Shown here one piece after another: positions 29,360 to 52,693 of a stretch of 64,000 nucleotides of DNA. The notes under the pieces are model-generated. The model worked only from the letters and a program-made list of their open reading frames with translations, was not told where the DNA came from and did not search any database. A program made the translations under genes and the position numbers. How positions within the stretch are numbered: position 1 is the stretch's first letter; each line of letters opens with the position of its first letter. Source of the stretch: Acidobacteriota bacterium (GTDB lineage: Bacteria > Acidobacteriota > Terriglobia > UBA7540); contig CADDZC010000004.1 of NCBI GenBank assembly GCA_902812365.1, positions 1 to 64,000 on the forward strand, written 5' to 3'.

Positions 29360-29434
29360 TGTAAACGTTTAAGTCATTATATATGTAGTGTACGTTCTAT
29401 ACGTAATACACGTAATTTACAAAATAGACGAAAG
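29360..29434. promoter_or_regulatory. AT-rich left border of the phage island with ACGTAAT motifs
   Basis: About 75 A/T-rich bases in an otherwise GC-rich region. ACGTAAT occurs at 29401-29407 and 29410-29416, nine bases apart, with a related ACGTT at 29392. It is the last stretch before the island's 3'-most gene. Related motifs in opposite orientation are at the far border (52504-52538). The role, whether transposase sites, terminator or promoter, is not clear. Confidence 0.4.
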
Positions 29435-29719
29435 TTACGATTCCTTGCCGAGATGGAGACGCCGCACAAAGTGCTCGATCGGTTCGTCGGCGTCGGCTTC
29501 CTGCTCATAGATTTCGAGGACGCGCTCGAGCATGATGCCGACCACCTCGGCCCGGCGCCGCAGGCTGCGCGTGCACCAGGCTTCCAGCGTCCGATATTTC
29601 GACAACGCCAAGCGACCCACCACGGGAACGTCCAGTTTTTCGCGTTTGCGGGTCGGGACGCTCGCCTTGCGGTTGAGAATGTCCCCATAATCACGGGAGT
29701 CGATGTAATTGGGCGCCAT
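29435..29719 (-). CDS. Small basic protein, unknown (island 3' end)
   Basis: The 94-residue protein is highly charged: an N-terminal MAPNYIDSRDYGDILN, a basic VPTRKREKL segment, then a helix pair with EAWCTRSLRRRAEVVGIMLERVLEIYEQEADADEP. The charged helices are compatible with DNA binding or coiled-coil interaction but no family is recognised. It is the last gene of the minus-strand island. It could be a late regulator or a non-phage passenger. Confidence 0.5.
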   Translation of the reverse strand: MAPNYIDSRDYGDILNRKASVPTRKREKLDVPVVGRLALSKYRTLEAWCTRSLRRRAEVVGIMLERVLEIYEQEADADEPIEHFVRRLHLGKES

Positions 29720-29772
29720 CCGTCGCGTGGGGCTGAGACCTCAGCCCACCCTCCTCAGTTCTTGACCTTCGT

Positions 29773-30414
29773 TCACCAAACCTGCGCTTGCCCCGTGATC
29801 CCCCCGGCCGAGGCCACCAGGTAAAGATTCGTGGCGTCGTAGGCCGTGGTCGCTTGAAACCAGATCGACCCGCTTGAGGTCATCTGAATGACCACGCCGA
29901 GCGGGGCCCGGCCCAGCCAGTGAGGGACGGTGAAATTGCCGGCGGCAGTGGGCGCGAGCGGCACCCTGCCGTAAATCTTGGTCGCCGCGATTGCTCCCGT
30001 GACCGCGGTACTGCTGGTCGTGACCTGGCCGATCAACGCGTCGCCGGCCGCCCCCGCCACAGGAGTTGCCTGATAATAGAAACCGGTCAGCGAATTGTAG
30101 AAGAGGTACGAAGCCGCGCCGCCGGGAGCCGGACTCAAGCTCGGCGGGAGCTGCGGGGCGTAGCGTACCCCCTGCGCGTAGAGAACTCCGACCGATAGCC
30201 CCGGGGTCAGGGTCGGCGACACCGACAGGACGAATCCCGAGACGACGCCGTTGAGTCCGAAATCGCGATATTGCAGATCGACAAGGTCCGACATGAACGC
30301 CACGTTGGCATCGAGCAGCGCCCAGTTCGCGTCCTGGTCGCTTTCGTAGCCTGTCAGGCCGTGTTGGGGTTGGATGAGGCCCTTCCTCGGTAAAATGGTG
30401 CGTACGGCGGCCAT
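29773..30414 (-). CDS. Phage tail fibre-like protein
   Basis: The 213-residue protein follows the hub and a small structural gene, the usual location of fibre or receptor-binding genes. It has an N-terminal helical part (NWALLDANVAFMSDLVDLQYRDF), then beta-rich segments with repeated Gly/Ser/Thr and a C-terminal unit with PHWLGRAPLGVVIQ and DATNLYLVASAGGITG. That C-terminal unit is closely similar to that of the 90-residue protein at 39545-39817, so the domain is duplicated. No enzymatic motif. Function as adhesin is inferred from position. Confidence 0.6.
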   Translation of the reverse strand: MAAVRTILPRKGLIQPQHGLTGYESDQDANWALLDANVAFMSDLVDLQYRDFGLNGVVSGFVLSVSPTLTPGLSVGVLYAQGVRYAPQLPPSLSPAPGGAASYLFYNSLTGFYYQATPVAGAAGDALIGQVTTSSTAVTGAIAATKIYGRVPLAPTAAGNFTVPHWLGRAPLGVVIQMTSSGSIWFQATTAYDATNLYLVASAGGITGQAQVW

Positions 30415-30462
30415 TCAGTTCCTCGGTACTTTCATACTCTGTGCGAGCCTCAGGCTCGCTCC

Positions 30463-30945
30463 TCAGTTGCTGGTGTTCACGCTCGAGCGCTGCGCCAAAC
30501 AGTAAACCTTCACCGTGCCCTGATTCTGGGCGGCGTTGCCGGAAAAATAGACCTGGCAAGTCACCACGCCCGTGGCATCATTGATGTCCAGCGCGTACGG
30601 CGCGGCAATCAAGCTTCCCGTGCCCAAATCGCTCGGGGCCAGTGCCGGAAACCCGGCTTGACCCGGCGTGAAGCCGGCCCCCGGCTGCCGGCTGGACGCC
30701 AAAAAGCCGAGGAACATGCATTCGGAGCGCGAATACACGTATCCGTCAACCGGGCTGACCGGCGTCGGCACGGTGTTCCCCGAGGCGAAAAATCCCATGT
30801 AGAAAAACTCCGCCCGCACTGCCGCGAACTTGGCGTTGTGCGAAATCTTCAGGATCGTGTCGTCGGTGAGAGGCTGGCCGGCGGCTAGGGCGGCGTCGGC
30901 AAGGTCAAAAAATCCGGGAATCGAAGCGAGCGTAAGTTGAGACAT
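30463..30945 (-). CDS. Phage structural protein, unknown
   Basis: The 160-residue protein lies between the hub and the fibre-like gene. It begins MSQLTLASIPGFFDLADAAL and contains aromatic and small residues (FFYMGFFASGNTVPTPVSPVDGY is split here as FFYMGFFAS and SPVDGYVYSR) and a beta-rich C terminus with NDATGVVTCQVYFSGNA. The segment YSRSECMFLGFLASSR near the middle is notable for its Cys and aromatic residues. No family recognised; the position points to a baseplate or fibre component. Confidence 0.6.
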   Translation of the reverse strand: MSQLTLASIPGFFDLADAALAAGQPLTDDTILKISHNAKFAAVRAEFFYMGFFASGNTVPTPVSPVDGYVYSRSECMFLGFLASSRQPGAGFTPGQAGFPALAPSDLGTGSLIAAPYALDINDATGVVTCQVYFSGNAAQNQGTVKVYCLAQRSSVNTSN

Positions 30946-30996: not shown

Positions 30997-33900
30997 TCAG
31001 AAGATCGCATGGCCGGGCGAGCCGTCCGGGTTGAGGCCGCCGTTCGCCGCCGAGCTCACAAACATCAATTGGCGCCTCTGGGCCGGACTGGCGGCCGAAT
31101 AGGCCGGCACGCCCGCCGCCGCGATTCCGAACGGCGACGTCATTCTCATGAACCGCGTATCGAGCAAGCCAAACTCGATCAGGCCGGAAGCGTAATGAGG
31201 CTTGCGGTCGATGACCTCACCAACGACGTTGGTCAGGCCGCGTTGCCCGGTCAGAAAATCGGGCACGAGTCGATGGCTCAGCCACACGAAGTCGCCCACC
31301 TCGACCGGTAGCGCCGACAGCATGGCTCTCACCTGATATTGCGGCGTTCCGAAAGCGTGGCGGCGAAAAATCCGGTCGGCCAGCAGGAACGAGCGCAGCA
31401 GTCCGCCGCGTTCCAGCCGCAAGCCGTTCGCTTCGACCCGGTGCTTGAAGTGCTGACGGTACTGCGTCACCGAGTCGCCTTGCTGGTAGGTGATCTCGTG
31501 CTGGTATTGGCGCGCCGCCGTCTCGCGCACCGTGTCATCGACTCCGAAGCGGACCGTCACCGAGTTGATAATCGGCAGCCGCGTGACCGCCGGAATACCG
31601 ATGATGTTGTCTTCGTCGAGGGCCATCACCGGCGAAAGCACCTCGGGCGACTTCATTGACTTGAGGGAAAGCTGGCCGCCCGCCCGCACCACCGTGTACA
31701 GGCCCAGGACCTTCAGAATCTGGTCTTCCAACCACTGTTTGCCCTCCACCGGCCGTGTAATCTTGAACTCAAACCAATCGCCGGAAAACATCCCGTCGCG
31801 CAGCCGCAGGATCCCCGGCACGTCGAGATAAGGATTGGGATTGATCAGCGTCGTGTCGTCGCCGGGCTCGTATTGCGCCCAGAACGGGGGAGGCACGCTG
31901 GGATCCTGGCCGACTCCAAGCTCGTTCTGCATGGCGACGAGATAGATATCGAGCGGGTTTGCCGCTAGCCACCGCGGATTCTGCTCGCTCACGGGAAAGG
32001 CATTGGCTGCGACGGCCGCCCCGGACGGCTGCGGGGGAGCCGGCTGCCCGGCCGCCCACGCGCCCGGACCGCCGTTTGACCAAATCTGGGCGCCTTGCAT
32101 AAATCGCTGCACGTCGCTCGTCTCGAACGTAATGCGGCCGTCCGCCGTCCACCCGGTCGCGGTAATTTGCCGCGTCTCCAAGACCACAAAGTCTCCCAAG
32201 GCCTGCTCGGGAAATCCCATCTTTAATGTGGCCGTCTTGCCGATAAACTTCGGCTGTGACGCGAGGGCCTTCACCACGTCCCCCGGATCAATGCACTCGA
32301 CCGTCAGGGCCGAAACCGTCGAAGCGCCGTCGAGCTCGCTCGCGGTCTGACCTTGGCCGTCGGGGATGAAGAGGTAGGGCAAAGGCTGCGGATTCGTCGC
32401 CGTGCTCAGCAGCAGGGTGGGGTTGACCGAGGTCAGCCATTGCCAGCAGGTGGGAGCCAGCATCGGCCAAACCTCAAACTCGTAAGGAAGGCCGCGCGAG
32501 GCCAGCGAGTAGCCGAGAAGGGAACCGTCGCCGGTGGTGGCCCGCACCGTCCGCTGGCCGGCGACCAGCTTGGCAAGAAAACTGTCCAGACTGCCCTCGA
32601 CGCTGGCAAAGTAGGCGCTCACGCCGGGGGCGTTGTAAAGCGCGAGGAGCGCGAGAATCACTCCCCACGTGCCTTCCTGCCAGACCGAGACCGGAGACCC
32701 CGAGTAGCCGCCGGGCGAGTCGTTATAAGGCTTGAAGCCGCCAAACGGGGTGGATTGCGCGTAGGCTTGATTCCATGTATTCGCCAAGTTCGACTTGACG
32801 ATCGTTTGGCCCGTTACGTAGAACTTCTGGTAGACAAATTGAAGGCACTGCAAGGCCTTGGCGTCGTCGCCGGCGGCGTGGCACAGCAGCGCCGACCACG
32901 TCCCCGAAGCGTCCAGCGCCTGCGAGGTATCGAGCGTGTTCGCGGTGACGCCGGCGGCGAAATGACCCGGGTCGGCGGCGGGCGGAATATAAAGATGGGC
33001 CAAAACCTGCGCTTGGATCGTGGCGGCCGCCGACGCCACCTGCCGAGCGGTCGCGTTCAGAGATGTCGCCTGAGCCCCGGTAATCGCCCCGGTTTTCAGC
33101 AACTCGGTCGCGGCCGCGGGCAGCACGGCCGCCGCCCGGACGAAGGCGAAATAAGCATCGACCTGATGCTCGGTCGATACCGTCGCCTGCAGACCGGGCA
33201 CGAATTGATAACCCGGGTCCTGGTATCTCCCGTAGCCGGCGTAGAGCATTCCTTGCGTCAGGTCGGCGGCGGTGGACTGCAGGGTGAGCAAAAAGTTCAG
33301 CATGCGCTGCAGATAGAGGGCCGGCGAGAAATCGAGCGACATCTGCATGTAGAGCGCGTAGGCGTAACACACCCAAGCCATCGCGCCGGTGCGGATGTAA
33401 GCCTGATCGACCTGGCCGTAGTAAACGTCGTAGCTGAAACTGAGCGAGCCGTCGGGCTGCGGTCCGCCGACGCTAAGGTTGTCAAAATAGAGATCGCCCA
33501 CGGCGTTGAGGGTCACCTTGAAGGTGTTGACAGAGGTCAAAGTGTCGCCGGCGAGCGACTGCACGAGCGAGCCGAGAGCCACGAGCGTCGTGTGCCAATT
33601 GCTGTCCGCGGGAGCGATGGGGACTGAGATGGTCTTGGTGGCACTATTGTAAGCGGCGGGCGCGGCGAACGCGGGGCTAAGGGCGACGTCGGTCACGCGG
33701 CCCGAGCTGGTGGTGATTCCGATATCAAATTGGAACTGGTTGGTGAGCGCGGCCGCTTCCCGATGTTCAAACGACACGATCGAGTCGGTCGGATCGGGCA
33801 GGCCCGCTCCGACATAAGCAAAGCTGGCTCCGGCCGCGCTGGCATGAAACTGCAGAATGTTGCCCGTGCCGTAAGGCGGCTCCTGAGGCATGACGGAGCT

Positions 33901-35019
33901 GGCCGCCATGTTGGTCACGCTGCCGTTGGTGGCGCTCCACCGCGCGGTGGAGCCGTCCTCGGCGTTTTCCAAGATCAGCGACGCCAGATACCCCGGATGA
34001 TCAAGGAATTGGTTCAGTTGGCGAATCACCTTGGAGGCGGCGGTGAAATTGCCGGCCTCCGAGCAAGTCAGAATGAATAGCGCGGCGTCGTAAATGAAGC
34101 TGCGGTTTTGAAGGGCCGGGGCGTTGGTGGCTGTCACGTCGGGCACGTACAGCGGGTCCGACGTGGGGACGATGAAGGATCGAGGCAGGCCTTGATAAGC
34201 CGCGAGATTCTGCAGCGAGCTGTAAACTGGCGTCGGCCCGGCCACAGGATCGTTATAGACGATGTGCAGGGTGAGGACGCCGGAGGCGGGGACCCGGCTC
34301 GAGCCGGAGCGCGCGTGGTGCGAGTCCTGAACGATGATGGGAATCTGGTCTTCCTGCAGATATTCGATGTCGGTCTTAACGTATAGACGAGCGAAATACG
34401 CCGACAACTTCGGGCCCACGCCCATGTTGGAATGAGCCACCCATCCCGCGGGCAAGGCCGGATAGCCGGCCCCCGCCGGCGGTGGCGGCACGGCCGCCGG
34501 ATACAGGACGGCGATCACCGAGCCGCTCATGACCGGGGCCACGCTCCACGTCGCCACGCCGCCGCCGGCATCGGTCAGGCCGGAGCTCGCCTGGTAATAG
34601 AATTGATCGGTTCGCGCGAAGACATCGACGCGATAGTTGGCTGCCGGCTGGAGAAGCGAAAAACACCGGCCCGTCACCGTTTGTGCTCCGGTGTTCTGGA
34701 ACGTGTTCACGAACACGTTGCCGGTCGCCAGGCCGCGGGGAGAAAAGTTGATCGGAAAGCCGTCCGGCCCGGGGGTCGCGTCCGGGAGGACGCCGGCCGG
34801 CGCGTCGATCACGATGTTTTCAACGGCGGCGGTGGCGAAGGCGGAAAGATCGGCGCTCGACACGATGCCGCACTCGGCGAGCGGCGCCGCCGTCGGGGTG
34901 GCCGCGGCACTCGCCTGCCAGTTGCCCACCGGGCCGCTTTGACGCCAATAAATCCAGTTGAGCGTCTGCTTCAGGTCGCCCCAAAAATCGCCGGGATAAT
35001 ATTGCGCGACAGATGGCAT
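30997..35019 (-). CDS. Phage tail hub/receptor-binding protein with inserted glycosidase-like region
   Basis: At 1340 residues this is the largest protein of the island. The N terminus (MPSVAQYYPGDFWGDLKQTL) and first 350 residues are beta-rich. Residues about 540-850 are helical and aromatic in alternation (YYGQVDQAYIRTGAMAWVCY, TSQALDASGTWSALL, VWQEGTWGVILALLALYN, LPYEFEVWPMLAP), the pattern of an alpha/alpha-toroid glycosidase. The last 400 residues (WFEFKITRPVEGKQWLEDQI, NSVTVRFGVDDTVRETAAR, LSALPVEVGDFVWLSHRLVP) resemble gp27/J-like tail hub proteins. The likely role is adsorption with surface-glycan cleavage. No sequence-level catalytic assignment is made. Codon use and GC look like the island's. 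Confidence 0.7.
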   Translation of the reverse strand: MPSVAQYYPGDFWGDLKQTLNWIYWRQSGPVGNWQASAAATPTAAPLAECGIVSSADLSAFATAAVENIVIDAPAGVLPDATPGPDGFPINFSPRGLATGNVFVNTFQNTGAQTVTGRCFSLLQPAANYRVDVFARTDQFYYQASSGLTDAGGGVATWSVAPVMSGSVIAVLYPAAVPPPPAGAGYPALPAGWVAHSNMGVGPKLSAYFARLYVKTDIEYLQEDQIPIIVQDSHHARSGSSRVPASGVLTLHIVYNDPVAGPTPVYSSLQNLAAYQGLPRSFIVPTSDPLYVPDVTATNAPALQNRSFIYDAALFILTCSEAGNFTAASKVIRQLNQFLDHPGYLASLILENAEDGSTARWSATNGSVTNMAASSVMPQEPPYGTGNILQFHASAAGASFAYVGAGLPDPTDSIVSFEHREAAALTNQFQFDIGITTSSGRVTDVALSPAFAAPAAYNSATKTISVPIAPADSNWHTTLVALGSLVQSLAGDTLTSVNTFKVTLNAVGDLYFDNLSVGGPQPDGSLSFSYDVYYGQVDQAYIRTGAMAWVCYAYALYMQMSLDFSPALYLQRMLNFLLTLQSTAADLTQGMLYAGYGRYQDPGYQFVPGLQATVSTEHQVDAYFAFVRAAAVLPAAATELLKTGAITGAQATSLNATARQVASAAATIQAQVLAHLYIPPAADPGHFAAGVTANTLDTSQALDASGTWSALLCHAAGDDAKALQCLQFVYQKFYVTGQTIVKSNLANTWNQAYAQSTPFGGFKPYNDSPGGYSGSPVSVWQEGTWGVILALLALYNAPGVSAYFASVEGSLDSFLAKLVAGQRTVRATTGDGSLLGYSLASRGLPYEFEVWPMLAPTCWQWLTSVNPTLLLSTATNPQPLPYLFIPDGQGQTASELDGASTVSALTVECIDPGDVVKALASQPKFIGKTATLKMGFPEQALGDFVVLETRQITATGWTADGRITFETSDVQRFMQGAQIWSNGGPGAWAAGQPAPPQPSGAAVAANAFPVSEQNPRWLAANPLDIYLVAMQNELGVGQDPSVPPPFWAQYEPGDDTTLINPNPYLDVPGILRLRDGMFSGDWFEFKITRPVEGKQWLEDQILKVLGLYTVVRAGGQLSLKSMKSPEVLSPVMALDEDNIIGIPAVTRLPIINSVTVRFGVDDTVRETAARQYQHEITYQQGDSVTQYRQHFKHRVEANGLRLERGGLLRSFLLADRIFRRHAFGTPQYQVRAMLSALPVEVGDFVWLSHRLVPDFLTGQRGLTNVVGEVIDRKPHYASGLIEFGLLDTRFMRMTSPFGIAAAGVPAYSAASPAQRRQLMFVSSAANGGLNPDGSPGHAIF

Positions 35020-35049: not shown

Positions 35050-35226
35050 TTAGGTTCCGTATCCTCCAATTCCGTACGGGACGACGCCGTAACCACCCAA
35101 AACAACCCCGGCCGTGATCGTGAAGCTTGCCAGGATCAAGCCGTAGTCCGCGATTTCGAACACGTAAAGGGGCTGTTTCGCCGGATCGGCGAGCGCATGG
35201 AGCCAAGCTTGGTTACCCACTATCAT
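35050..35226 (-). CDS. Small phage tail protein (58 residues)
   Basis: A short gene between the hub and the distal tail gene. It starts with ATG at 35226 and stops with TAA at 35052-35050. The peptide begins MIVGNQAWLHALADPAK, has a segment YVFEIADYGLILASF, and ends in a glycine/tyrosine-rich GGYGVVPYGIGGYGT tail. It fits the gap exactly, with 31 bases on each side, and has no competing frame. The Gly/Tyr tail is typical of short surface-exposed virion peptides. Function unknown. Confidence 0.55.
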   Translation of the reverse strand: MIVGNQAWLHALADPAKQPLYVFEIADYGLILASFTITAGVVLGGYGVVPYGIGGYGT

Positions 35227-35257
35227 GGCGGACGCTTGGGAGCGGTCGGAAACGTCT

Positions 35258-35644
35258 CTACCCCACCACCGCCTGCCGGAACTTCACGCTGAGCGTGTAT
35301 TTACCGGGAGCCTTGTACCGAGCCACCGACTGGGTGTCCTCCAGCCAGTAATTGGTGAAGGCGGCTTGGGAGGCGTCCGGGTAGTAACTGAACTGGCCGC
35401 CGGCCAGCGCATACTGCATAAAAGCGCTCCAGGCTGCGACATCGGCCCCATTCAGGATCCACTCCAGTTCCAGCGTCAGAAACTGATCCACGCGCTCGGT
35501 CACCGACTCGCGGACGCCCGAGCTGGCGACGTTGTCGTGGCGGACAGCCTCAAAGGCGTAAGCGGGGACGCGTCGGGGCGGATACTGGAAGTTCAAGGTG
35601 ACCGGACCCGACCCGGGGTCGTAGACAATCTTGGGATTGGCCAT
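35258..35644 (-). CDS. Distal tail/baseplate protein, phage
   Basis: The 128-residue protein starts MANPKIVYDPGSGPVTLNF and ends ARYKAPGKYTLSVKFRQ. It is beta-rich with YPPRRVPAYAFEAVRHD and LELEWILNGADVAAWSAFMQYAL. The pattern, a short beta domain with a YDPGxGPVTLNF start, is seen in small distal-tail proteins of siphovirus-like phages encoded directly before the hub. Position right after the tape measure supports that reading. Function inferred. Confidence 0.6.
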   Translation of the reverse strand: MANPKIVYDPGSGPVTLNFQYPPRRVPAYAFEAVRHDNVASSGVRESVTERVDQFLTLELEWILNGADVAAWSAFMQYALAGGQFSYYPDASQAAFTNYWLEDTQSVARYKAPGKYTLSVKFRQAVVG

Positions 35645-35707: not shown

Positions 35708-35893
35708 TCAGGCCGTCCACGGATGCCTGAATCTTCCCGGGCCGCCGCTCAGCGCGGAGGGCCCGGTCACGAGCCCAAGTATTACCGGTTCAGAAACTAC
35801 AGTGTAACCTGTCAGCAGGCGTTTGTCAAGAGTTATTTTGGCGATTTCAGTGCCGGCGCCCTCCGATATCGCTAACTGATTCTCTGTCATCAT
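35708..35893 (-). CDS. Possible small phage protein coupled to the tape measure gene
   Basis: The frame begins with an ATG (35893) that overlaps the TGA stop of the tape measure gene (35890), a coupling common in phage late operons. It encodes 61 residues: a polar MTENQLAISEGAGTEI, a middle with ITLDKRLLTGYTVVSEPVI and a Pro/Gly-rich tail. No family. The overlap is the main support; the region from 35650 to 35700 is A/T-rich and noncoding. It could equally be a chance frame. Confidence 0.35.
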   Translation of the reverse strand: MMTENQLAISEGAGTEIAKITLDKRLLTGYTVVSEPVILGLVTGPSALSGGPGRFRHPWTA

Positions 35894-36636
35894 CTTACTG
35901 CTGTTGCCGGGCGCTTCGTGTGGCTGGCCACCAGACGCACGTCGTATCGTTCGACTCCCGTGTTGATCACCTTCGCCAGCCATTGGGCGGCCTGGGGCTC
36001 CCCGAGCACCAGGACGTTGAGGACGCCGCCGCCCGGCCGGGCCGCGACCGGCGGCGCGGGTGCGCCAGCCGCTGCTTCCCTCTGCTCGCCGCGCGCCGAG
36101 GTCCCGCTCGCAACGCTTCTCGCCTCGAGCCCGGCCGGACTGGGCAGCGCTCCGGCCATCGCTCCGGCGGCGCCACCGATGGCTCCCCACAGGGCCGCCG
36201 ACCGGAAGGCGTTGGCCGAGCCCGTCAGATCGCCCAGAGCCAAAAGGTAAAAACCCAGCCCGAGGCTCCGCAGGGCCTGCAGAATTGATTCGGCCGTGAT
36301 GGCCATGGCCGTAGCCCGCAGCGCCCGCGCGGCCGCCTCTCCGACCGACTTCGAATAGGCCAGCGCCACGGCGATGTTCATCGTCATGCCTTGGGCCAGT
36401 TCATCGAATGCGATCGCGGCTCCCTGGCGAAAACTCGTGAGCGCCCCTTCGCCGAGTGAAAGCTGGCTGCGGAAATTCTCTCCCCAGGCGGCCAAGTCCT
36501 TGGCCACCATCCGAAATTCCGATCGCAGCGAGTCGGTCTGAGCGCTCACGTGCCGTCGGAAATGCTCGAGCGCGCCGACCGCCTGGGAGGGGTCGGCGGA
36601 GATTTGAAACAGAAGGCCGACGGTATTGTCTGCCAT
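35890..36636 (-). CDS. Short phage tail tape measure-like protein
   Basis: The 248-residue protein is alanine-rich and helical: a polar first 130 residues (SADPSQAVGALEHFRRHV, EFRMVAKDLAAWGENFRSQL), a hydrophobic Gly/Ala part (AALWGAIGGAAGAMAGALPSP), and a basic Pro/Gly tail. It lies right after the two tail chaperones, the normal position of the tape measure gene. Tape measures are normally 600-2000 residues; at roughly 0.15 nm per residue this one would specify a tail of only about 37 nm. If it is the tape measure, the tail is unusually short; alternatively it is a partial or different tail protein. Confidence 0.55.
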   Translation of the reverse strand: MADNTVGLLFQISADPSQAVGALEHFRRHVSAQTDSLRSEFRMVAKDLAAWGENFRSQLSLGEGALTSFRQGAAIAFDELAQGMTMNIAVALAYSKSVGEAAARALRATAMAITAESILQALRSLGLGFYLLALGDLTGSANAFRSAALWGAIGGAAGAMAGALPSPAGLEARSVASGTSARGEQREAAAGAPAPPVAARPGGGVLNVLVLGEPQAAQWLAKVINTGVERYDVRLVASHTKRPATAVR

Positions 36637-37937: not shown

Positions 37938-38474
37938 TTACACTTCTTCCATCTGGAACTGCACTGCCAGCGTCACGCGCAGCACGGGAACCTCCATCTG
38001 CTGGAGGTTGACCAGCCCATAGGCGTGAGACTCGACGAACACCTCTTTCACCGAACCGGCGGCGGGCGGCGTGGTGGTGCCGCTCGGGACGGTTTCGTGG
38101 ACGATGGGCAGCGGAGTCTCCCAGTCGGCCGTGGTGGCGGTGGTCACGATCATATCCAGCACGCGCGCGTAATCATGGGCGTTATCCTGCGCCATCTCCT
38201 GGTCAAACTGGCCCACATCGAGCGCCAGCGTCACCCGCGAGCGAGACTGGCGCGGTCCGACCACGTCGGGCGCGAAGGCGATGCTATCCGCCGCCAGCGT
38301 TAACCAGGGAAAGGCCGTGCGCAGGCCCGGCCCCTTGTGAAACTCGCTGATCGGGCTCAAGGCCGTGTTGACAATGGCGATCGCCGCCGCCTGATCCCGT
38401 TGCACGATGGCAATCAGTTGGTTCAGCAACGGCTTGACAAAACCTGCGTTGTACGCCGGCGTGTAAGCCATCAT
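37938..38474 (-). CDS. Tail terminator/completion-like protein (gp37-like)
   Basis: The 178-residue protein starts at the ATG pair at 38474/38471 (MMAYTPAYNAGFVKPLL) and overlaps the previous gene by a few bases. It has helix LLNQLIAIVQRDQAAAIAIVN, then beta strands with WETPLPIVHETVPSGTT and VNLQQMEVPVLRVTLAVQFQ. Between gpG-like and tail tube genes, Mu-type phages have gp37/gp38 or a tail terminator; this gene is in that place. No closer assignment is possible. Confidence 0.6.
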   Translation of the reverse strand: MMAYTPAYNAGFVKPLLNQLIAIVQRDQAAAIAIVNTALSPISEFHKGPGLRTAFPWLTLAADSIAFAPDVVGPRQSRSRVTLALDVGQFDQEMAQDNAHDYARVLDMIVTTATTADWETPLPIVHETVPSGTTTPPAAGSVKEVFVESHAYGLVNLQQMEVPVLRVTLAVQFQMEEV

Positions 38475-44040: not shown

Positions 44041-45693
44041 TCAAACCCTTTCTGCGGCGATACCGTCGCGTCCTGCGGTGTCGGTGGCTGCGAAGGCGTC
44101 ATCGGCCGCGTCCGTCGGAGTTTCGCCCGATCCGCGGGCGTCGTCTTCCTCGATCGTCTCGCCGCGCGCCGTCGCCACGCCGTGTCCGGTCTCCGGCGGC
44201 AGCGCCAGCTCTTCGCGGATGAAGCGGCGCAGGTTCTCTTCCGAAACGACGAGCCCGGCCTGCGCAAACTGGGTGAGCGTGTTGACGATGTCGGGAAGAC
44301 CCCGCGACTCGACGTTGGCGGCCACAATCTGCGGATACGGGGCTCCTTCGCCGAAGTTGTATTCTGCCAGTCGCCGCGCGGTCGTAGCCGTCAGCTCGAA
44401 GGCGATCTGATCGGCCAGATTTTGCAAGGCCAGCAGGAAAAAACTGCCGTGTTGCTTGCCCAGGGCCCGGGAACCATGCTCGGCCTGGCCCAGGTCCATG
44501 AAAAGGGCGAGTGCGGCGCGCGAGATCATCACGTTGTGGTGCTGGATCGAGGGCGCCAGGTCGCGCACCCGCCCTTCGTAGCCAACAATTCGGAAGCCAC
44601 TCGCCGCGTCGCCGGGCGGCTCAACGATCCCCGTCGCCTCATGGGCGCAAATTTGGGTGACGAAGTTGTAGGCCGTCTGCTGGTCCTCTTTGGAGAAACC
44701 GGGCGGAAGCTTGAAAACCGGCACGCCCAGCGAATTCCGCTCGCAGGCGATGGCATCGATGCGGTACAGCTGGCTTTTGACGTACCAGTGCGGATACATG
44801 GCGCGCGACAGAGCCAGGCCCCAGAAGTTGGCGCCTTCCCGCTGATAGCTGAACACCGTGCACTTGTCCGCCGGCACGAGAGCGGTCATGAAGCGGCCGC
44901 GGCGATATCCGTACTGCTCGAGCGCCAGCAGCGTTTCCCCGTCTTCTTCGGTGTGCCAGCGATAAAACGTCAGCGGCAGCCGTGCCGCCAGCCGGCGCAG
45001 CCGGATGTGGGGGCCGTCCACGGTCCAGACCTCCTCGTGGACGGCGCATCCGAAGTCGAGCATGAGGAGCGCGTTGTGAATGATATCGGGCCACGGCTGC
45101 GAAACCCATCCCCCCGTCGAGCGCCGAAATTCCAGGCCGCCGAAAAGGTTGTCGCGCACGAAGTCGGCCACCTCTTGGGCCCTGCGTTCCGCGCCCACTC
45201 CGCGCACGCGCGGACCGCGATAGGGGACGACGTTCCATTTCGCTGAAAGCACGGGCAGTTTGCAGGCGGCAAGAGTGGCCCGCACTTGGGCATCTCCCCG
45301 GCGCATCTTTTCGTAAGTGGGGATGGCCGCGCGGCCCGACAGTTCGGGGTTATATTCGCCCAGATCTTCGAGAAAACCGCTAATAATGGGCGTGCCCGAA
45401 ACTCCGTAAACTCCCGCGACCGGCTCCGGAGGCTTGCTGCCCGGCTGGGGATCGCGCACCGGTTGGACCGGGGCGGCGCCGGGGATGAGATGAGCCAGCC
45501 GGCGTCCGATCGTGGTGTCGGCGAGCGATGCCGCGCCGAGGCCGGCCTCCTGATCGGCCCGAGCGACCGCCCGATCCAGCCGCTCCGCCCATCGAGCGCC
45601 CTCGCGGCGCACTGCCGCGCGCACCGCTTGTCGGAGCTCGCGCTCGAGCGCCCGCCCCTGATGACCGTTGCCCGAACTGTGACCCTTGTTCAT
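44041..45693 (-). CDS. Phage portal protein (Mu gp29/DUF935-like)
   Basis: The 550-residue protein is a portal of DUF935 type: segments EYNPELSGRAAIPTYEKMRRGDAQVR is the typical core (shown here in two parts, LGEYNPELSG and YEKMRRGDAQV), LLMLDFGCAVHEEVW, RWHTEEDG, FMTALVPADKCTVFSY and NFWGLALSRAMYPHWYVK. The C-terminal part has an acidic tail with Glu/Asp repeats. Portals form the packaging channel. It lies after the terminase and holin genes and before the metallopeptidase-like gene, the usual order being terminase then portal. No defect visible. Confidence 0.85.
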   Translation of the reverse strand: MNKGHSSGNGHQGRALERELRQAVRAAVRREGARWAERLDRAVARADQEAGLGAASLADTTIGRRLAHLIPGAAPVQPVRDPQPGSKPPEPVAGVYGVSGTPIISGFLEDLGEYNPELSGRAAIPTYEKMRRGDAQVRATLAACKLPVLSAKWNVVPYRGPRVRGVGAERRAQEVADFVRDNLFGGLEFRRSTGGWVSQPWPDIIHNALLMLDFGCAVHEEVWTVDGPHIRLRRLAARLPLTFYRWHTEEDGETLLALEQYGYRRGRFMTALVPADKCTVFSYQREGANFWGLALSRAMYPHWYVKSQLYRIDAIACERNSLGVPVFKLPPGFSKEDQQTAYNFVTQICAHEATGIVEPPGDAASGFRIVGYEGRVRDLAPSIQHHNVMISRAALALFMDLGQAEHGSRALGKQHGSFFLLALQNLADQIAFELTATTARRLAEYNFGEGAPYPQIVAANVESRGLPDIVNTLTQFAQAGLVVSEENLRRFIREELALPPETGHGVATARGETIEEDDARGSGETPTDAADDAFAATDTAGRDGIAAERV

Positions 45694-45760: not shown

Positions 45761-46249
45761 TCACTTGCCGCCCGGCACTTTGGACGGTGCCGCGGCCTTC
45801 GCGTCCGGATTGGCCCGCTGATAACCCTTCGCCTTTTCCCACGTTCGGGCTCCGGTGTAGCCGAGAAACGCGACGCCGAAAAGCTGCAAGTAGGCGGCGG
45901 GAATATCCATGGGCTTCAGCCCTTGATGCAAAAAGGCATTTCCCACCGGGCAGACAATCAGCGAAAAGGCGATCGCCGCGATCATGACGTAGAGGAAGGT
46001 GGGCCGGGCGCGCCGCACGTAAGCGTCTTCACTCTGCGTCTCGGCGGTGATGTTCTTGGACTGAATCTCCGCCAGCGCCTGATCGCGCGCCGCGAGGATT
46101 TCCTCGCGCTTGACCGCCAGCTCCTGGGCGGCCTGCTGCATCTGCAGCTTCTGTTCCGGCGACAAGTGGAACTGATCGATCAAGTCGCTGATCGACTTGA
46201 CCGGGTCGCCCCCTACAATCCCCTTGAAGATGTCGAGAAAACCTGCCAT
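45761..46249 (-). CDS. Holin of the 3-TM type
   Basis: The 162-residue protein has a long helical N-terminal part (SPEQKLQMQQAAQELAVKREEIL) ending in SEDAYVRRARPTFLYVMI, a hallmark of GTA-type 3-TM holins, then membrane segments (FLYVMIAAIAFSLIVCPVG, YLQLFGVAFLGYTGA). It would permeabilise the membrane for lysis. No recognisable endolysin is encoded near it. Its position between terminase and portal, rather than in a terminal lysis cassette, is worth noting. Confidence 0.8.
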   Translation of the reverse strand: MAGFLDIFKGIVGGDPVKSISDLIDQFHLSPEQKLQMQQAAQELAVKREEILAARDQALAEIQSKNITAETQSEDAYVRRARPTFLYVMIAAIAFSLIVCPVGNAFLHQGLKPMDIPAAYLQLFGVAFLGYTGARTWEKAKGYQRANPDAKAAAPSKVPGGK

Positions 46250-47450: not shown

Positions 47451-48947
47451 TCACCACGCGCCGGCCGGTATTCCCTGGGCCACCGGTCGCCCCACCAGGC
47501 GCCCCACCTCGGCCAGATGATAGGCGGGTCGCTCGGCGGCCGATTCCGCCAGGCAGAAGGCCCACCAGTGATCGGCGTGGCCAAAGCGTGCGTCGTGCTC
47601 GGCGTCGAAACGCACCTGGCCCACCGAGTTCACGGTCTTCTTCACGCCGCGAAAGGATTGGCGAATGCGATCGTCGTCCGGCAAGCGGACCTTGAGTTCC
47701 TCCATGCGGCGCTTGGCGACCACGGCCAAGGTTTCCTTGGTCGACTGGGTGAATTGCACGCCCTCGATCTGGCCGGGGAAATCACGCTCCAGGGCCTCGA
47801 AAATCACCAAGCCCATGCCGCTCTTATCGATGACCATCCGTCGCAGCAGCGGCATCAAACTGCGCGCCTCGCGAATCTGCTCCGGAGTCGGCGTATTGCG
47901 CATCTCGACCACACCGCGCGTCCAGGTCACGTCCCCGACGAGCTCAGAAATCCAGATGACCGACAAATCATGTTTTCTCGCGATGTCCCACCCGGCGTAC
48001 AGACGGCCGTGAGGTCCCAGATCGGCCGCTGCTGACCCCGGACGATCGATGAGGGACAACTGCGTGCTGGCTTCGCTCGAGATGCAGCTCTGAAAGAGCT
48101 CGGGCGATATCCATTCCGAGGCTTGCGAGATGAACTGGCAGCAATATTCCTGCAACCAGGTATCTTCGTCGCAGCCGGCTTTCACCTCCGCCGGGTCCAG
48201 CGGTACGCCCTCCTGCACGGCCAGGAAAATGTCGCACCAGTGGCCGCTCCAGGGATTCACCACCTTCCCTCCCGGTTCCGCTCTGTGCACCGGCTGTTCC
48301 GCCGGCCGCACCCCGGCGTCGAGCCCCAGCGACTTGGCCAGCTCCCAGAACTTCCCCTGCTGGCCGTTGGGCGTGGAAAGGATGCGCATGTGATAGCCGA
48401 GCGAAACCTGCCGGTAGACGGCGGTGAAGATGGCCTGCGAGTCCTTGTGAAAGGCGAATTCGTCCAGCACCACGTCTCCAGTGTAGCCCCGCGCGGTGTC
48501 GGGATTGGCCGCCAGCACCACGATGCGAGAGCCATTGGGAAAACGAATCTCGTGCTGCAGCGCCGACGTTCCCGCGAAGGGCAGGTTGGGAAAGTAATCG
48601 GCCACCACGCCCTTGTAACCGTCCAGCCAGGCCTTGGCCTTTTGCGCGAGCTCGAGCGACTGGCGCTCCGAGCGGGAAAGAAAGACGACGATCCGCTGCG
48701 GAATCACCAGGCAGCGCCGCACTGCCCAGGCGGCCGTGGCCGTCGAATAGCCGATTTGCGCCGACTTGACGGCGATGGCGAAACGCGCGTCGTCCTTGAC
48801 CCAGCGCCGCTGGAAGGGCCGAAGCACGACGTCGTGACGGTCGAGATTGACCTCTGGCACCGCAGCCTCCAGCGCCGGCCCGGACGCTGCCCGGCGCGGC
48901 TGCCCGCGCTTTGAAGTCCATCCCGGTTTTCCCTCAGGCGCTGTCAT
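47451..48947 (-). CDS. Phage terminase large subunit (Mu gp28-like)
   Basis: From the ATG at 48947 (MTAPEGKPGWTSKRGQ) the protein has 498 residues. The ATPase part has VKSAQIGYSTATAAWAV as a variant Walker A (KSAQIGYS, without the usual GKT), VVFLSRSERQSLELAQK and TGDVVLDEFAFH as Walker B. The nuclease part has LYAGWDIARKHDLS, VIDKSGMGLVIFEAL and FDAEHDARFGHADHWWAF, each with acidic residues for metal binding. TerL packages DNA headful. The frame is open upstream without family sequence. No truncation. Confidence 0.85.
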   Translation of the reverse strand: MTAPEGKPGWTSKRGQPRRAASGPALEAAVPEVNLDRHDVVLRPFQRRWVKDDARFAIAVKSAQIGYSTATAAWAVRRCLVIPQRIVVFLSRSERQSLELAQKAKAWLDGYKGVVADYFPNLPFAGTSALQHEIRFPNGSRIVVLAANPDTARGYTGDVVLDEFAFHKDSQAIFTAVYRQVSLGYHMRILSTPNGQQGKFWELAKSLGLDAGVRPAEQPVHRAEPGGKVVNPWSGHWCDIFLAVQEGVPLDPAEVKAGCDEDTWLQEYCCQFISQASEWISPELFQSCISSEASTQLSLIDRPGSAAADLGPHGRLYAGWDIARKHDLSVIWISELVGDVTWTRGVVEMRNTPTPEQIREARSLMPLLRRMVIDKSGMGLVIFEALERDFPGQIEGVQFTQSTKETLAVVAKRRMEELKVRLPDDDRIRQSFRGVKKTVNSVGQVRFDAEHDARFGHADHWWAFCLAESAAERPAYHLAEVGRLVGRPVAQGIPAGAW

Positions 48948-48976
48948 CTGCCCTTTCCCCTGCCAACCCCGGCGCG

Positions 48977-49405
48977 TCAGTTGTAAGCCATCCCGCTCAG
49001 CATCGCCACGGTGATGGCCGGCGTGTTCGCGGCGTTGGATTTTCGGCATCGAATCCAGCGGATGGCGTGATTGACGGGAACCACCGTGTCGGTGGTGATC
49101 GACTGCGCCCCGTAGGCCACGCTGCCGTCGCCCGGCGCGGGCGGCTTCAAGGCCGGAATCGAGGCCTGATTGGAGACGAAAATTTGCACCGCGTCTCCCT
49201 CGTTGAACCCGTGGACCACAATGCTGAACGGCAGAATGAAGCGCCCCACATCAATCCACTGTCCTTCGGTCACCCCCGCCGAATCGAGAATCGTGGTGTT
49301 GACCAAGTTGGCGATGGAAGACGCCGCCAGCGTCGACCCCGCCGGCGCCGTCGACGACGTGACCGCGCTGGACTTGGAAAAACTGAAAAGCCTTCGAAGG
49401 TTCAA
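48977..49405 (-). CDS. Phage protein, beta-rich, unknown
   Basis: The 142-residue protein (MNLRRLFSFSKSSAVTSST ...) lies 29 bases before the terminase. It is beta-rich with VGRFILPFSIVVHGFNEGD and VAYGAQSITTDTVVPVNHAIR. Such beta-rich proteins here are often additional capsid or head fibre components. No family is recognised. The start is the first ATG and there is no competing frame. Confidence 0.5.
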   Translation of the reverse strand: MNLRRLFSFSKSSAVTSSTAPAGSTLAASSIANLVNTTILDSAGVTEGQWIDVGRFILPFSIVVHGFNEGDAVQIFVSNQASIPALKPPAPGDGSVAYGAQSITTDTVVPVNHAIRWIRCRKSNAANTPAITVAMLSGMAYN

Positions 49406-49466: not shown

Positions 49467-50015
49467 TCATGAAGCTCGCGGTTCCACGCGGCGTTCCGGC
49501 GGCCCAGTCAATCCGATGGCCGCTGAAATCCGCTCCACCACTTCGCGCGTATCAAAGGGCCGGCCCTGCTTCTCCGCCGTTTGCGCCTCTTTCACAGCTT
49601 TGCGGGCGGCGTTGAGCTGCTCCCGCTTCAGCAGCAACTCCTTCTCCTTGACCAGCACTTTGCGATGCTCGCTTTGATACTTCTTCTCGAGCTCGCGGCG
49701 TTTCCGCTGTTCTTCCAGAACCTGGCGAACCTCCGCCTCGCGGAATTCCATCGTCGTCATCTGGTGCAGCAAGAGCGCCTCGACGAGCTGGCTGGCGTCC
49801 GACGACGGGTCTCGGCGGGCTGCGTTCACCAGCTTCGTAATCTTGTTCCTGATCCCCGAAATGATGTCGGCGCGGATCGGGTCGCCGATTGGCTCGTCTT
49901 TGGCGCGCCGGGCCGCCAGCTTTTTGCCTTTGGGGATGCCGGCGTCGGCGTCCGCGAGCAAGGCCGCGCCCGCCGCGTCCGTGTCGATCCGCCTCTCCCA
50001 TTCTGCGTCTGCCAT
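49467..50015 (-). CDS. Coiled-coil phage protein
   Basis: The protein of 182 residues starts at ATG 50015 (MADAEWERRIDTDAAG) and contains a long charged coiled-coil (EVRQVLEEQRKRRELEKKY, LLKREQLNAARKAVKEAQ) after a polar N terminus with IPKGKKLAARRAKDEP. It precedes the terminase and might be a second packaging-associated or scaffold protein. No family match. The frame open upstream to 50093 is not supported. Confidence 0.5.
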   Translation of the reverse strand: MADAEWERRIDTDAAGAALLADADAGIPKGKKLAARRAKDEPIGDPIRADIISGIRNKITKLVNAARRDPSSDASQLVEALLLHQMTTMEFREAEVRQVLEEQRKRRELEKKYQSEHRKVLVKEKELLLKREQLNAARKAVKEAQTAEKQGRPFDTREVVERISAAIGLTGPPERRVEPRAS

Positions 50016-50192
50016 TAAACCCTGCTCCCCCTTGACCCAGTCGGTGGCCGCGAGCCGGTTCGATCCTAAAGAGGCTTCAATCGGGCACCGCACTAGAGCC
50101 CCGAACCGGCCCGCGATCGCAACTCTTACCGGGCGGGAGTCGCGGGGCCGCCGGAGGAAAGCTGTTCACCCCGAAGGTCTCCCGCCCGGGCC

Positions 50193-50504
50193 CTACAATC
50201 CGATGGCCGGATCCGGCGCGATCCGCCCTTCCGCCAAGTCCACCGCTTTGGGCGTGGCTCGCACGGCCGTCAGCTCGATATCGGCCCGTCCGGCTCGCAA
50301 GTGCTTCAACTCCGCGTACCCGTTCTGGATGAGGTAGTTGAGGTGATACCTCACCCGGCTCTCCTCCACCGGGTAGCCCGCCCGGCGCATGGCCTGAAGG
50401 CGCAGCTCGCTGAACGGCATCCATTCCATCTGCCAGTCCGCCAGAATGCGCAACAACAGGCCGCGCTGCGACTCGTTGCGGACGTCCTCTGTTAGTGAAC
50501 TCAT
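50193..50504 (-). CDS. Winged-helix phage protein (VpaChn25_0724-like) 1
   Basis: The 103-residue protein has the layout of small winged-helix proteins of Mu-like phages: LLLRILADWQMEWMPFSELR, then VRYHLNYLIQNGYAELKHLR as recognition helix and wing, and AVRATPKAVDLAEGRI with a C-terminal Pro. Such proteins lie near the start of the packaging genes and may be regulators or packaging factors. It is paralogous in layout to the gene at 51324-51638. Binding DNA is inferred. Confidence 0.65.
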   Translation of the reverse strand: MSSLTEDVRNESQRGLLLRILADWQMEWMPFSELRLQAMRRAGYPVEESRVRYHLNYLIQNGYAELKHLRAGRADIELTAVRATPKAVDLAEGRIAPDPAIGL

Positions 50505-50669: not shown

Positions 50670-51260
50670 CTAGGCCGAGCCGGTCGCGCTCCGGCCATCA
50701 TCGCGGCGCGCCGGATGGTGCAGATCGAGCAACTTCGCTATCTCTTGCAACTTGGCTGAAGCCGCCGGGGGAAGAGAAGTTCCCTCGGGGTTGGCCAGAG
50801 CGTTCTCAAAGTCGTGAAATTTGCGCCGCATTAACTCCCACTTCCACAGTTTCAGTTGCGTTTCGATGCGGCGAATTCGAGTTTCGAGCTGAGTTTTGCG
50901 CGATCCGAGCAGCGCCACCTGGGCGCGAAGCTGCTGATTACGGCGCCCGAGAGACGCCTCGCCCGCTTCCGTCGCCGCCGGAGTCGCGAGAGGCGGCGGC
51001 TCCAGGGCGGCCTTGGCCAAGCGGGTCAGCTCGGCGGCAATCTCCATCTGACGGCGAAAACGCTGCTCTTGCAGCCCAGGGTTCGAGCGCAGATAGGCGG
51101 CGACCGCCTCGGCGGCCACCTTGCGGCTCGTCCAGCCGCTGGCGGCGTCGGCGACCTCTTGAAAGGTCGCGCCTTCGATTAACATCTGGTCGACGGCCGT
51201 CCGGACTTCCAGCGGCAGGTTTTCCATGCGGCGCTCCGCGTCTTTCTTGCGTTGTTTCAT
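50670..51260 (-). CDS. Mu gp27-like protein (DUF3486), probable small terminase
   Basis: The 196-residue protein has LPLEVRTAVDQMLIEGATFQ and VADAASGWTSRKVAAEAVAAYL, with LPxEVRxxVDxxL as a signature of the gp27/DUF3486 family. A leucine/Arg-rich coiled-coil follows (LRAQVALLGSRKTQLETRIRR split here as LRAQVALLGSRK). In Mu-like phages gp27 directly precedes the large terminase and is the candidate small terminase. Here three genes separate them. The helix-turn-helix-like N terminus suits DNA recognition. Confidence 0.7.
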   Translation of the reverse strand: MKQRKKDAERRMENLPLEVRTAVDQMLIEGATFQEVADAASGWTSRKVAAEAVAAYLRSNPGLQEQRFRRQMEIAAELTRLAKAALEPPPLATPAATEAGEASLGRRNQQLRAQVALLGSRKTQLETRIRRIETQLKLWKWELMRRKFHDFENALANPEGTSLPPAASAKLQEIAKLLDLHHPARRDDGRSATGSA

Positions 51261-51323
51261 TGCCTAGCCTTGTCGCGGTTGCAGCTGATCCCGGACCCCT
51301 CCGGCCGGCCCGCCCTGGGCCGC

Positions 51324-51638
51324 TCACTCCTTGGGCTCCATGTAGATGCCCTCATCGGGCGGCAAACGCCCGTCGTGGTAATCGATCCCTTTGGCCGTAA
51401 TCTTCACCAGTTGCACGTTCCGGTGGGAGCGCGGACCGCGAACTCCCTCCACGGCCACCAATCCTTTTTCGGCCAGATACGCCACATGAAAGCTCAGCTC
51501 ATCGAGAGGAACGGGGTACCCGAAAAAGTCCAATTCGCCTTGCAGCAGGGGCAGGGTCGCGGACTGCGGGAAGATCAACGCCAGGTAGTACAGAATCTTG
51601 CCGCGAATGATTTCTTTGTGACGAAGAGTCGTATTCAT
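51324..51638 (-). CDS. Winged-helix phage protein (VpaChn25_0724-like) 2
   Basis: The 104-residue protein has RHKEIIRGKILYYLALIFPQ, a helix pair, then PLDELSFHVAYLAEKGLVAVEG as recognition helix and wing, and KITAKGIDYHDGRLPPDEGI. The layout matches the gene at 50193-50504, and the pair flanks the gp27-like gene. Paralogous duplication of this regulator-like gene is uncommon and the two have diverged strongly. Likely role is regulation or packaging; not established. Confidence 0.65.
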   Translation of the reverse strand: MNTTLRHKEIIRGKILYYLALIFPQSATLPLLQGELDFFGYPVPLDELSFHVAYLAEKGLVAVEGVRGPRSHRNVQLVKITAKGIDYHDGRLPPDEGIYMEPKE

Positions 51639-51796
51639 ATGGCTTGTGCCCAGCGCAGCCTCTCATGCAACCTGCGCAGGAAAAAGATCCCTTCTACGGC
51701 TCGCCTCACCGACGCGAAGCCGCTCCGGCAAACCCAGCTCGAAGGCCGCCGAGCCACAGTCGCCTTTAAGCCCGACGCGAGGGCGATTCGACTGAA

Positions 51797-52174
51797 TCAT
51801 GGCTCCTCACCGTCCTTGCTTGGCGCGACTCGGGCCCCCTCCGCCTCCCCGCGGACCAGCCCTAACACGTTGCGGTGAATGGCCTTTAGCGCGATCAACA
51901 TTTCCTGGTGCTCGTAGCTTTCCAGGGAGTCGCGATGTTCCACCGTGGTGGCGAGCCTGGATAGCGCTTCAGCCTGAGACTGGTGAGCACCGGCGAGTTG
52001 CCCGATGTAATCCCGGGCGATATCAAACGCGCTGTCCGTCTGTTCTTTCTTGATCTCCATGGACTTATCGATCCAGTGGTGGGCCAGTCTCATGAATCCG
52101 TAAGCGAACAGAATCAAGATCAGAATGCCCGGGCCCCAGAGGACGATATAGTGTTCTAAATCTTCGGGAATCAA
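51797..52174 (-). CDS. First gene of the phage island: membrane protein with helical tail
   Basis: I place the start at the TTG at 52174 (125 residues), where the frame becomes protein-like; it is open back to 52372. It has a membrane segment (IVLWGPGILILILFAYGFM), then a helical part with DKSMEIKKEQTDSAFDIARD and LESYEHQEMLIALKAIHR. It is first in the minus-strand cluster. No family match. It may be a lysis or exclusion protein. The 520-base region upstream should hold the promoter of the late operon. Confidence 0.5.
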   Translation of the reverse strand: MIPEDLEHYIVLWGPGILILILFAYGFMRLAHHWIDKSMEIKKEQTDSAFDIARDYIGQLAGAHQSQAEALSRLATTVEHRDSLESYEHQEMLIALKAIHRNVLGLVRGEAEGARVAPSKDGEEP

Positions 52175-52693
52175 TGTCTTGCCACCCGTGAGCGCGCCCC
52201 AACCTCCGCCGCTCTCCCTGTCCTTTTCTCTTCTCTGCCCCTCACAAAATAACCTTAGCAGGCTCGAATGGGACGGTGGGGACGACTGAGAAAATTGAGA
52301 CAAATTTTTTTTGCCTAGCGGAATCAGTCGATTAACCTGTGGAAAAAGCGAGGGCTCGAAAGAATCGCGCAAAAGTGTGGAGTTTCTCCACGTCGGGGAT
52401 CTCCCCCGGGCCAGGCCGGTCTGGCCTGAGGGCTGATGGACGTCTCAAGAATTATTCACAGAACTGTGGAAAACTCTGTGGAAAAACACTCATACATACT
52501 CGGTTACGTATTGAACCCACATAGTTTCTAACGTATTGCACCGATTTAGTTCACACTTGATTAAAAATTCTTTGGATAAAGAATGCCCGCTACTCTGTTT
52601 ACTCTTGCGTTAGAAAGGAAGCCGTCTGACGTCCTCTGCTGAACGGAGGAATGAAGCGGGTGCGGCAGGTCTGGCAACCCTCTTCCGTGCGCC
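52175..52693. promoter_or_regulatory. Control region before the phage island with DnaA-box-like repeats
   Basis: This 519-base region lies between the VWA gene and the first island gene. TGTGGAAAA (complement TTTTCCACA, one mismatch from the DnaA box TTATCCACA) occurs three times, at 52338-52346, 52465-52473 and 52477-52485, and TTATTCACA (fits TTATnCACA) is at 52452-52460. From 52505 two near-tandem 25-base units start with ACGTATTG (52506 and 52531). A short T tract is at about 52305. It has A/T content above its neighbours. It probably carries the island's promoter and may be its former end or origin. Confidence 0.5.

Follow-up and report, generated by a model that had tools for sequence, protein, structure and literature searches.

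A candidate gene-transfer-agent-like locus of probable Mu-type siphovirus descent in a family of Acidobacteriota

The block of phage late genes at positions 29435-52372 of the window (the whole 64,000-nucleotide stretch of DNA that was analysed) is best read, with a probability of roughly 0.77, as a phage-particle locus of the gene transfer agent (GTA) kind that was domesticated by its host and is inherited vertically. It also seems likely that the locus represents a further independently derived GTA family, which would belong to the Acidobacteriota, descend from a Mu-type siphovirus and occur in most of one soil family, with replacements in two genera. Domestication, which the first-pass annotation had preferred to decay, is favoured by the occupation of one fixed locus in 11 genera, the existence of empty sites, the congruence with the host tree, the low dN/dS values and the conservation of packaging residues in the large terminase subunit (TerL).

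Gene content of the island

Open reading frame calls and HMM matches define a complete late module, in which a Mu-type head is combined with a siphovirus-type tail and which comprises about 27-30 genes, all on the minus strand. The core reading frames are open and chromosomal genes directly adjoin the island on both sides, as had been described in the first-pass annotation. The island yielded no integrase, transposase, repressor, replication gene, sheath or endolysin, which confirms the earlier description of a late-gene block devoid of early genes; a candidate endolysin is carried by many relatives. The earlier gene inventory was correct with regard to the late-gene set and required amendment in that a holin is present and that the capsid and packaging half is specifically of Mu type, with portal, protease and gp27 packaging/head genes (PF06074, PF10123 and PF11985, the last through the orthologue in genome G010).

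The operon is headed by g51 (51797..52372), which encodes a small protein with one transmembrane segment, tentatively holin- or spanin-like, and whose true start probably lies inside its ORF. Many relatives have an orthologue in the equivalent place, with identities of about 42-52%. Then comes p436b (51324..51638; phrog_436, 1e-10), which is conserved more strongly than any other small gene here, with 67-85% identity across genera. The TerS-like/Mu gp27-like gene (50670..51260; cluster c4) is identified through its G010 orthologue (PF11985, 28.5 bits; phrog_426, terminase small subunit), and is followed by p436a, a second phrog_436 copy (50193..50504; 1.4e-9), and by a second TerS-like gene (49467..50093) of cluster c12, a member of which directly precedes TerL in G024, G034 and the phage G029:C47. 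An ORF between this gene and TerL (48977..49405) gave no PHROG or Pfam match. TerL itself (47451..49049; phrog_2, 3e-35; PF03237/PF17289, Terminase_6N/6C) comprises ATPase and nuclease parts, whose catalytic acids D196-E197, D355, D408 and D493 are each kept throughout 28-29 sequences or with a single exception. Three small ORFs follow (47004-47450, 46650-46964 and 46314-46517), the second of which has a transmembrane segment and homologues (g46b) in G001, G024, G004, G015 and G020. The 3TM holin (45761..46249) matches PF11351 (GTA_holin_3TM, 9e-19) and phrog_3427 (2e-23).

The portal is of Mu gp29 type (44041..45693; PF06074 Portal_Mu, 2.8e-43; phrog_113, 1.7e-55), and the prohead protease/scaffold of Mu I type (41827..43338; PF10123, 5e-30; phrog_328, 3e-32). 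The gene between them (43308..44096) encodes a protein with a HELLEMLADP motif and no Pfam match, and occupies a variable cargo position. The putative head decoration protein (41258..41776) has a conserved position and a match to PF09956 (Phage_cement_2, E 2e-4) just below the cut-off, while the major capsid protein (MCP; 40080..41018) is recognised by phrog_1005 (5.6e-78) and PF03864. Neither capsid nor portal matched other capsid or portal Pfam families at E<=0.01, except the P23-45 portal. The order of g14 (39545-39817), g13 (38994-39548), which is head-tail adaptor-like, and g10 (37938..38828), which is tail-terminator-like and has its true start near 38475, is conserved in relatives, and their functions are suggested by position. 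The Neck1/tail completion gene (38471..39184; phrog_26, 6.9e-15; PF05069 at the cut-off) probably starts downstream of its ORF start.

The major tail (tube) protein (MTP; 37307..37918) matches phrog_2175 (1.4e-5) and phrog_885 (2e-3); its AlphaFold model, with a pLDDT of 33, was set aside. Two small overlapping genes (36833-37249 and 36649-36873), conserved in relatives, are assigned to tail chaperones by position. The tape-measure-like protein (35890..36636), which matches phrog_2335 weakly (E 0.008), is short: its 248 aa, and the 248-314 aa of island homologues, compare with 710 aa in G029:C47, a difference that bears on the tail and says nothing on head size. By a rule of thumb, a tape measure of 248-314 aa would correspond to a tail of roughly 35-50 nm. 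In the distal tail position are g06 and g05 (35050..35644), whose order is conserved in relatives. A 1340-aa hub/fibre fusion (30997..35019) matches the tail fiber families phrog_13714 and 7032 and is a homologue of the G029:C47 hub protein, and the island ends with three distal genes, g03, g02 and g01 (29435..30945). In G000, G006, G009, G010, G011, G013, G023, G024 and G029 the first two of these are conserved as far as the downstream boundary.

Fixed locus, descent with the host and selection

The order of the locus is the Dtd gene, the island and the block of an ornithine-cyclodeaminase-like gene, which in the window (27085..28056, plus strand) lies outside the element and anchors its downstream boundary. 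The cyclodeaminase-like block adjoins the island in six genera, and Dtd or its neighbour lies beside the island's lysis genes in eight, so that the union of both junctions gives one common locus in 11 of the 18 genera. From Dtd to the cyclodeaminase gene the filled locus measures 28.5-30.7 kb, and in two genera (G004, G020, G034 and G037) the locus is empty, with 236-409 bp after Dtd. No early genes lie between the flanks of the filled locus in G006, G010 and G023, and MuA and MuB are absent from the island and from the filled loci of relatives. Relatives of TerL and/or the capsid were found in 36 of the 39 family genomes (this genome and 38 relatives), most of which are fragmented assemblies, whereas elsewhere in the class 11 of 360 genomes gave a capsid match, with identities of 25-39%. 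Pieces resembling the locus are already listed as viruses in IMG/VR.

In many relatives the head of the cluster holds a candidate endolysin (a weak SLT match) together with holin/spanin-like genes. The SLT-like lysis gene has no detectable copy in the genome studied here, whose upstream flank is also rearranged, and the copy in the window could therefore be less competent than those of its relatives.

The gene trees share with a host tree built on two proteins 9 of 10 splits for the MCP, 9 of 13 for the protease, 11 of 20 for the portal and 9 of 23 for TerL, the last showing that congruence is not full, whereas at most 3-4 splits were shared in 2000 label shuffles. The Mantel test gave p <= 2e-4. 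Where dS was unsaturated, dN/dS was 0.025-0.087 for the MCP, 0.03-0.06 for the MTP and 0.16-0.26 for TerL, values that resemble those of flanking host genes, and the structural genes are under purifying selection. The comparison of synteny and dN/dS proposed in the first-pass annotation thus supports its reading. The fixed locus in 11 genera and the common splits indicate mostly vertical inheritance and co-diversification with the host. The exceptions are genera g3 and g5, which have no copy at the fixed locus and carry divergent islands elsewhere; descent is therefore not strictly vertical throughout.

Origin of the locus and alternative explanations

Besides its island at the fixed locus, genome G029 contains a second, separate element, the full-length transposable phage G029:C47. 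This phage has MuA- and MuB-like genes and gives an indication of what the ancestor of the island may have been. Phage and island share, in equal order, phrog_436, gp27/TerS, TerL, Portal_Mu, the I-type protease, the cement protein, the capsid and a siphovirus tail; the island differs in lacking MuA, MuB and the repressor, and its tape measure is about 40% as long. This order presumably resembles that of B3/D3112-like transposable Mu-like siphophages, while the nearest isolated phages reach about 30-32% identity in capsid and portal. A longer copy with a transposase, which the first-pass annotation had named as evidence against domestication, was thus found in part, but as a phage separate from the stripped island kept in the same genome, and it therefore points to the origin of the island and does not refute its domestication.

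The search for a Mu-type transposase in the wider genome, also proposed earlier, gave no PF09299 match, and this Mu-transposase C domain was absent in 12 of the 15 genomes searched, the present one included. The MuA-like gene of G029 was well recognised only by PHROG 310 and missed by PF09299, so that absence by the latter is weak evidence. The DDE_2 model (PF02914) matched neither this genome nor its controls and is given no weight, and no integrase was among the matches listed for contig C4. TACGTA-like motifs near both borders were rejected as Mu-type ends since they were not found at relatives' islands, and candidate TG/CA ends had no matching 5-bp duplication as judged by eye.

A Mu-like prophage remnant in decay, whose late genes stay open by chance, would explain the absent early region, the missing lysis gene of this genome and the in-place deletion from TerL to g03, with flanks intact, in G013. 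It is nevertheless very unlikely: decay would break frames long before capsid identity falls to about 50%, and here the locus and its gene order persist across genera at that identity, with dN/dS far below 1. An active transposable prophage, with an early half that the assembly lacks or that is provided in trans, would agree with the phage in G029 and with the capsid genes linked to a transposase in G036, and a metagenome-assembled genome could contain a misjoin; yet genomes assembled independently of one another show identical junctions between host and island, neither target duplication nor conserved end repeats were seen, and the PF09299 result, weak as it is, points the same way, which makes this explanation highly improbable. 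That related phages inserted independently and repeatedly at a single hot spot has hardly any probability. It could account for the two island types (49-50% capsid identity) that occupy one locus and for the islands placed elsewhere in g3 and g5, but no site-specific integrase lies in or beside the islands, island trees agree with the host tree, and the synonymous distances of island genes between G010 and G023 (0.38-0.69) approach those of the flanks (0.71-0.78).

The particle may also have been domesticated for a purpose other than gene transfer, for example to kill kin, to defend against phages or to release a cargo protein, with any DNA packaging incidental. The evidence consists of gene content and selection, which leaves room for such a role, and some relatives' clusters hold genes for large secreted, papain-like or metallopeptidase-like proteins. 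Use as a tailocin or for secretion needs no capsid or packaging motor, however, and the retention of TerL, portal, protease and capsid, with the ATPase and nuclease acids of TerL conserved, therefore counts against this alternative, which is considered unlikely.

The preferred reading, that of a GTA-like locus, starts with the probable insertion of a transposable siphovirus of Mu type between the Dtd and ornithine-cyclodeaminase-like genes early in the acidobacterial family. Genes for transposition, the repressor gene and the early genes would then have been lost, and those for lysis, packaging, head and short tail kept. The operon would be expressed in few cells under some host signal, and TerL and TerS would fill heads with host DNA, because the phage genome could be neither excised nor replicated. 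Lysis would follow from the holin and from an endolysin whose gene lies either here or elsewhere, and the particles, with their short tails, may deliver DNA to kin. If this is true, the occurrence of the locus in filled, empty and partly deleted form, together with the full-length phage relative, would make the steps of domestication readable (loss of transposition genes, shortening of the tape measure, fixation and later replacement), and the locus would hint at a way in which DNA is exchanged in a soil group that is abundant and for the most part uncultured.

Comparison with known gene transfer agents

GTAs are defined by caudoviricete-derived proteins, an endogenized genome, mostly vertical inheritance and co-diversification with the host, as well as by encapsidation of mostly random host DNA, a head in which the GTA genome does not fit and delivery of DNA to other cells (PMC9662315). 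The proteins of the island that are caudoviricete-derived by HMM matches include the portal, protease, capsid, TerL, neck and tail, and its chromosomal flanks and the junctions common to many genomes indicate full endogenization. Three independently exapted GTA groups with known genes occur in Alphaproteobacteria and spirochetes (PMC9662315). A literature search, with most subscription journals and bioRxiv preprints outside its reach, found no GTA reported in Acidobacteriota, and in an acidobacterial genome paper the term is used only in a general sense (PMC5900883). Bartogtaviriformidae (BaGTA) and Brachygtaviriformidae (VSH-1/BhGTA) are likewise independently domesticated phage-particle loci (PMC9662315), from which the island is set apart by description, no linked replication origin or secretion genes having been noticed beside it.

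Rhodogtaviriformidae, represented by RcGTA of Rhodobacter capsulatus, resemble the island in having a chromosomal late-gene cluster, vertical descent, no replication or integration genes and a short tail, which for the island is predicted from genes; the holin family PF11351, named for GTA release, is a further likeness. The capsid and portal of RcGTA belong to families other than PF03864/phrog_1005 and PF06074. The capsid (PF03864-like/phrog_1005) and portal (Portal_Mu, PF06074) of the island are therefore not of RcGTA type, a distinction drawn from family matches and the known RcGTA families, and the island differs from RcGTA also in its phylum and in its probable Mu-type origin.

Gene content of the island

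The first-pass annotation described a block of about 30 minus-strand phage late genes lacking early genes, and this description was borne out in the window genome (3.5 Mb in 123 contigs, 96.7% complete). At window positions 29435-52372, 27-30 minus-strand genes stand in late-phage order, and no early genes were found among them. Gene assignments were based on PHROGs and Pfam, with the small terminase (TerS) recognized via its orthologue in genome G010. The island begins with a one-TM protein, phrog_436, a TerS/gp27-like gene, a further phrog_436, a second TerS-like gene and the large terminase (TerL), followed by three small ORFs, a 3TM holin, a Mu portal, an unknown gene and a Mu-I-type protease. 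Next come the head genes (cement-like protein, major capsid protein, adaptor-like genes, neck), the tail genes (tail tube, chaperone-position genes, a short tape-measure-like protein, distal tail genes) and finally a 1340-aa hub/fibre and three distal genes. The GC content is 64.0%, compared with 62.1-63.6% in the flanks. TACGTA-like repeated motifs lie in AT-rich stretches at both ends (52494-52543 and about 29370-29440); these motifs were not seen at relatives' islands. The 99-base tRNA-Gly called by ARAGORN within an ORF at 26846-26944 is probably a false positive.

A conserved chromosomal site and its occupants

Gene calling and clustering of relatives' contigs, the synteny comparison proposed earlier, revealed one conserved neighbourhood: a 529-aa gene, Dtd, the island, small genes, an ornithine-cyclodeaminase-like gene, a creatininase-like gene and more shared genes. 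The upstream junction is present in genera g4, g7, g8, g11, g13, g14, g16 and g18, the downstream one in g1 (window), g7, g10, g11, g12 and g14, and either in 11 of the family's 18 genera. In G006, G010 and G023 a single contig spans both junctions, and no transposase, integrase or repressor was recognized between them. Among the matches listed, the only integrase on a locus contig lies about 70 kb away, in G006. In the window genome Dtd is located about 13 kb upstream, beyond groES/groEL and other genes; the upstream flank has therefore been rearranged.

The distance from Dtd to the cyclodeaminase gene is 28.5-30.7 kb in filled genomes. The site is empty in G004 and G020 (g5) and in G034 and G037 (g3), where the downstream flank follows 236-409 bp past Dtd and a more divergent island is located at another position; G034:C233, the example that was read from end to end, likewise contains no early genes. 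In G013 both flanks and both island ends are kept, and a truncated TerL directly joins the distal gene g03, an in-place internal deletion (L096, G013:C291, 9861-11534). Large lineage-specific secreted-protein-like genes also occur at varying positions within the structural cluster (L057 1924-8328, G005; L064 8589-10895, G010; L061 8262-10651, G006).

Of 39 genomes of the GTDB family, the window genome among them, 33 have a TerL relative and 32 a capsid relative, which makes 36 with at least one of the two; two of the remaining three are only 58-75% complete. Outside the family, 360 genomes of the class were sampled and 11 gave a capsid match (25-39% identity), and the closest isolated phages share about 30-32% identity in capsid and portal. 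Three IMG/VR "viral" contigs (L039, L042, L043) match the window island, and L043 also carries the lysis gene found at the chromosomal locus; rather than free viruses, all three probably represent fragments of the fixed-locus island. Another family of the class, f7, has a second candidate fixed-locus late module (G044:C182, L078; G084:C235, L079; G066:C94, L099; G052:C77, L108, L080, L109), with phrog_436-like and gp27-like genes, a related TerL and a portal different from that of the window island. It adjoins rplU-like and TPR/SleB-like genes in G044, G084 and G066, and no early genes were noticed in the module.

Descent, selection and phage relatives

The host tree was built from HslU plus ObgE. 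With it the capsid tree shares 9 of 10 splits, protease 9/13, portal 11/20 and TerL 9/23, against an average of 0.2-0.3 and at most 3-4 when labels were shuffled (Mantel p <= 2e-4). The positions of G004/G020 and G015 differ between the portal tree and the host tree. The suggested dN/dS analysis, run for G010-G023, yielded 0.066 for capsid, 0.10 for portal and 0.20 for TerL, with 0.056 for tail tube and 0.11 for fibre; three host genes in the flanks gave 0.13-0.18. At synonymous sites the distances of the island genes are near those of the flanks and somewhat lower (0.38-0.69 vs 0.71-0.78), which could be explained by occasional recombination or codon bias. TerL residues D196-E197, D355, D408 and D493 are kept throughout the compared sequences, with at most one exception each.

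A longer copy with a transposase in relatives had been named as evidence against a domesticated island. Such a copy was found in part, as a phage separate from the fixed-locus island (C75 and C10) that the same genome, G029, also carries. This relative (G029:C47; L241, L077, L242) is a full-length transposable siphovirus-like prophage of about 34 kb, with a MuA-like transposase (phrog_310, 5e-66), a MuB-like ATPase (phrog_296, 1e-26; AAA_22), a phage lysozyme (PF00959, 4e-26) and late genes in island order. Its tape measure has 710 aa vs 248-314 aa in islands, and its capsid falls near the G006/G010 group on a branch of 0.63, vs 0.02-0.21 for the islands there. The island capsids of g3 have transposase-linked capsid genes (G036:C62, C764) as their sisters in the tree; therefore, phage and island may have exchanged capsids in that genus, or a second domestication may have taken place there. 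Capsid genes at three loci (G036:C764, L227; G036:C62, L229; G031:C127, L231) possibly represent a small transposable element or fragment; both G036 loci have few other late genes and have MuA-like genes close by on the opposite strand, and C764 a MuB-like gene too.

Proposed working and class assignment

Judging from the anatomy of the island, one long operon would be expressed, Mu-type heads would be assembled and TerL/TerS would package any available DNA; for expression, packaging and delivery this picture is inferred by analogy with known gene transfer agents (GTAs; PMC9662315; PMC7296036). The tails would be short and non-contractile (no sheath gene was found in the island). The cell would be lysed by the holin and an endolysin, for which an SLT-like gene is the candidate in many relatives; no copy of it, nor another endolysin, was detected in the window genome. 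Under the GTA definition applied here (PMC9662315), three features (phage-derived proteins, endogenization and vertical co-diversification) are found in the island; the other three (random packaging of host DNA, a head too small for the GTA genome and delivery to cells) concern the particles. The island, known here from its genes, is therefore filed as GTA-like and not as a proven GTA. Its capsid and portal families speak against membership in the group of RcGTA, the GTA of Rhodobacter capsulatus.
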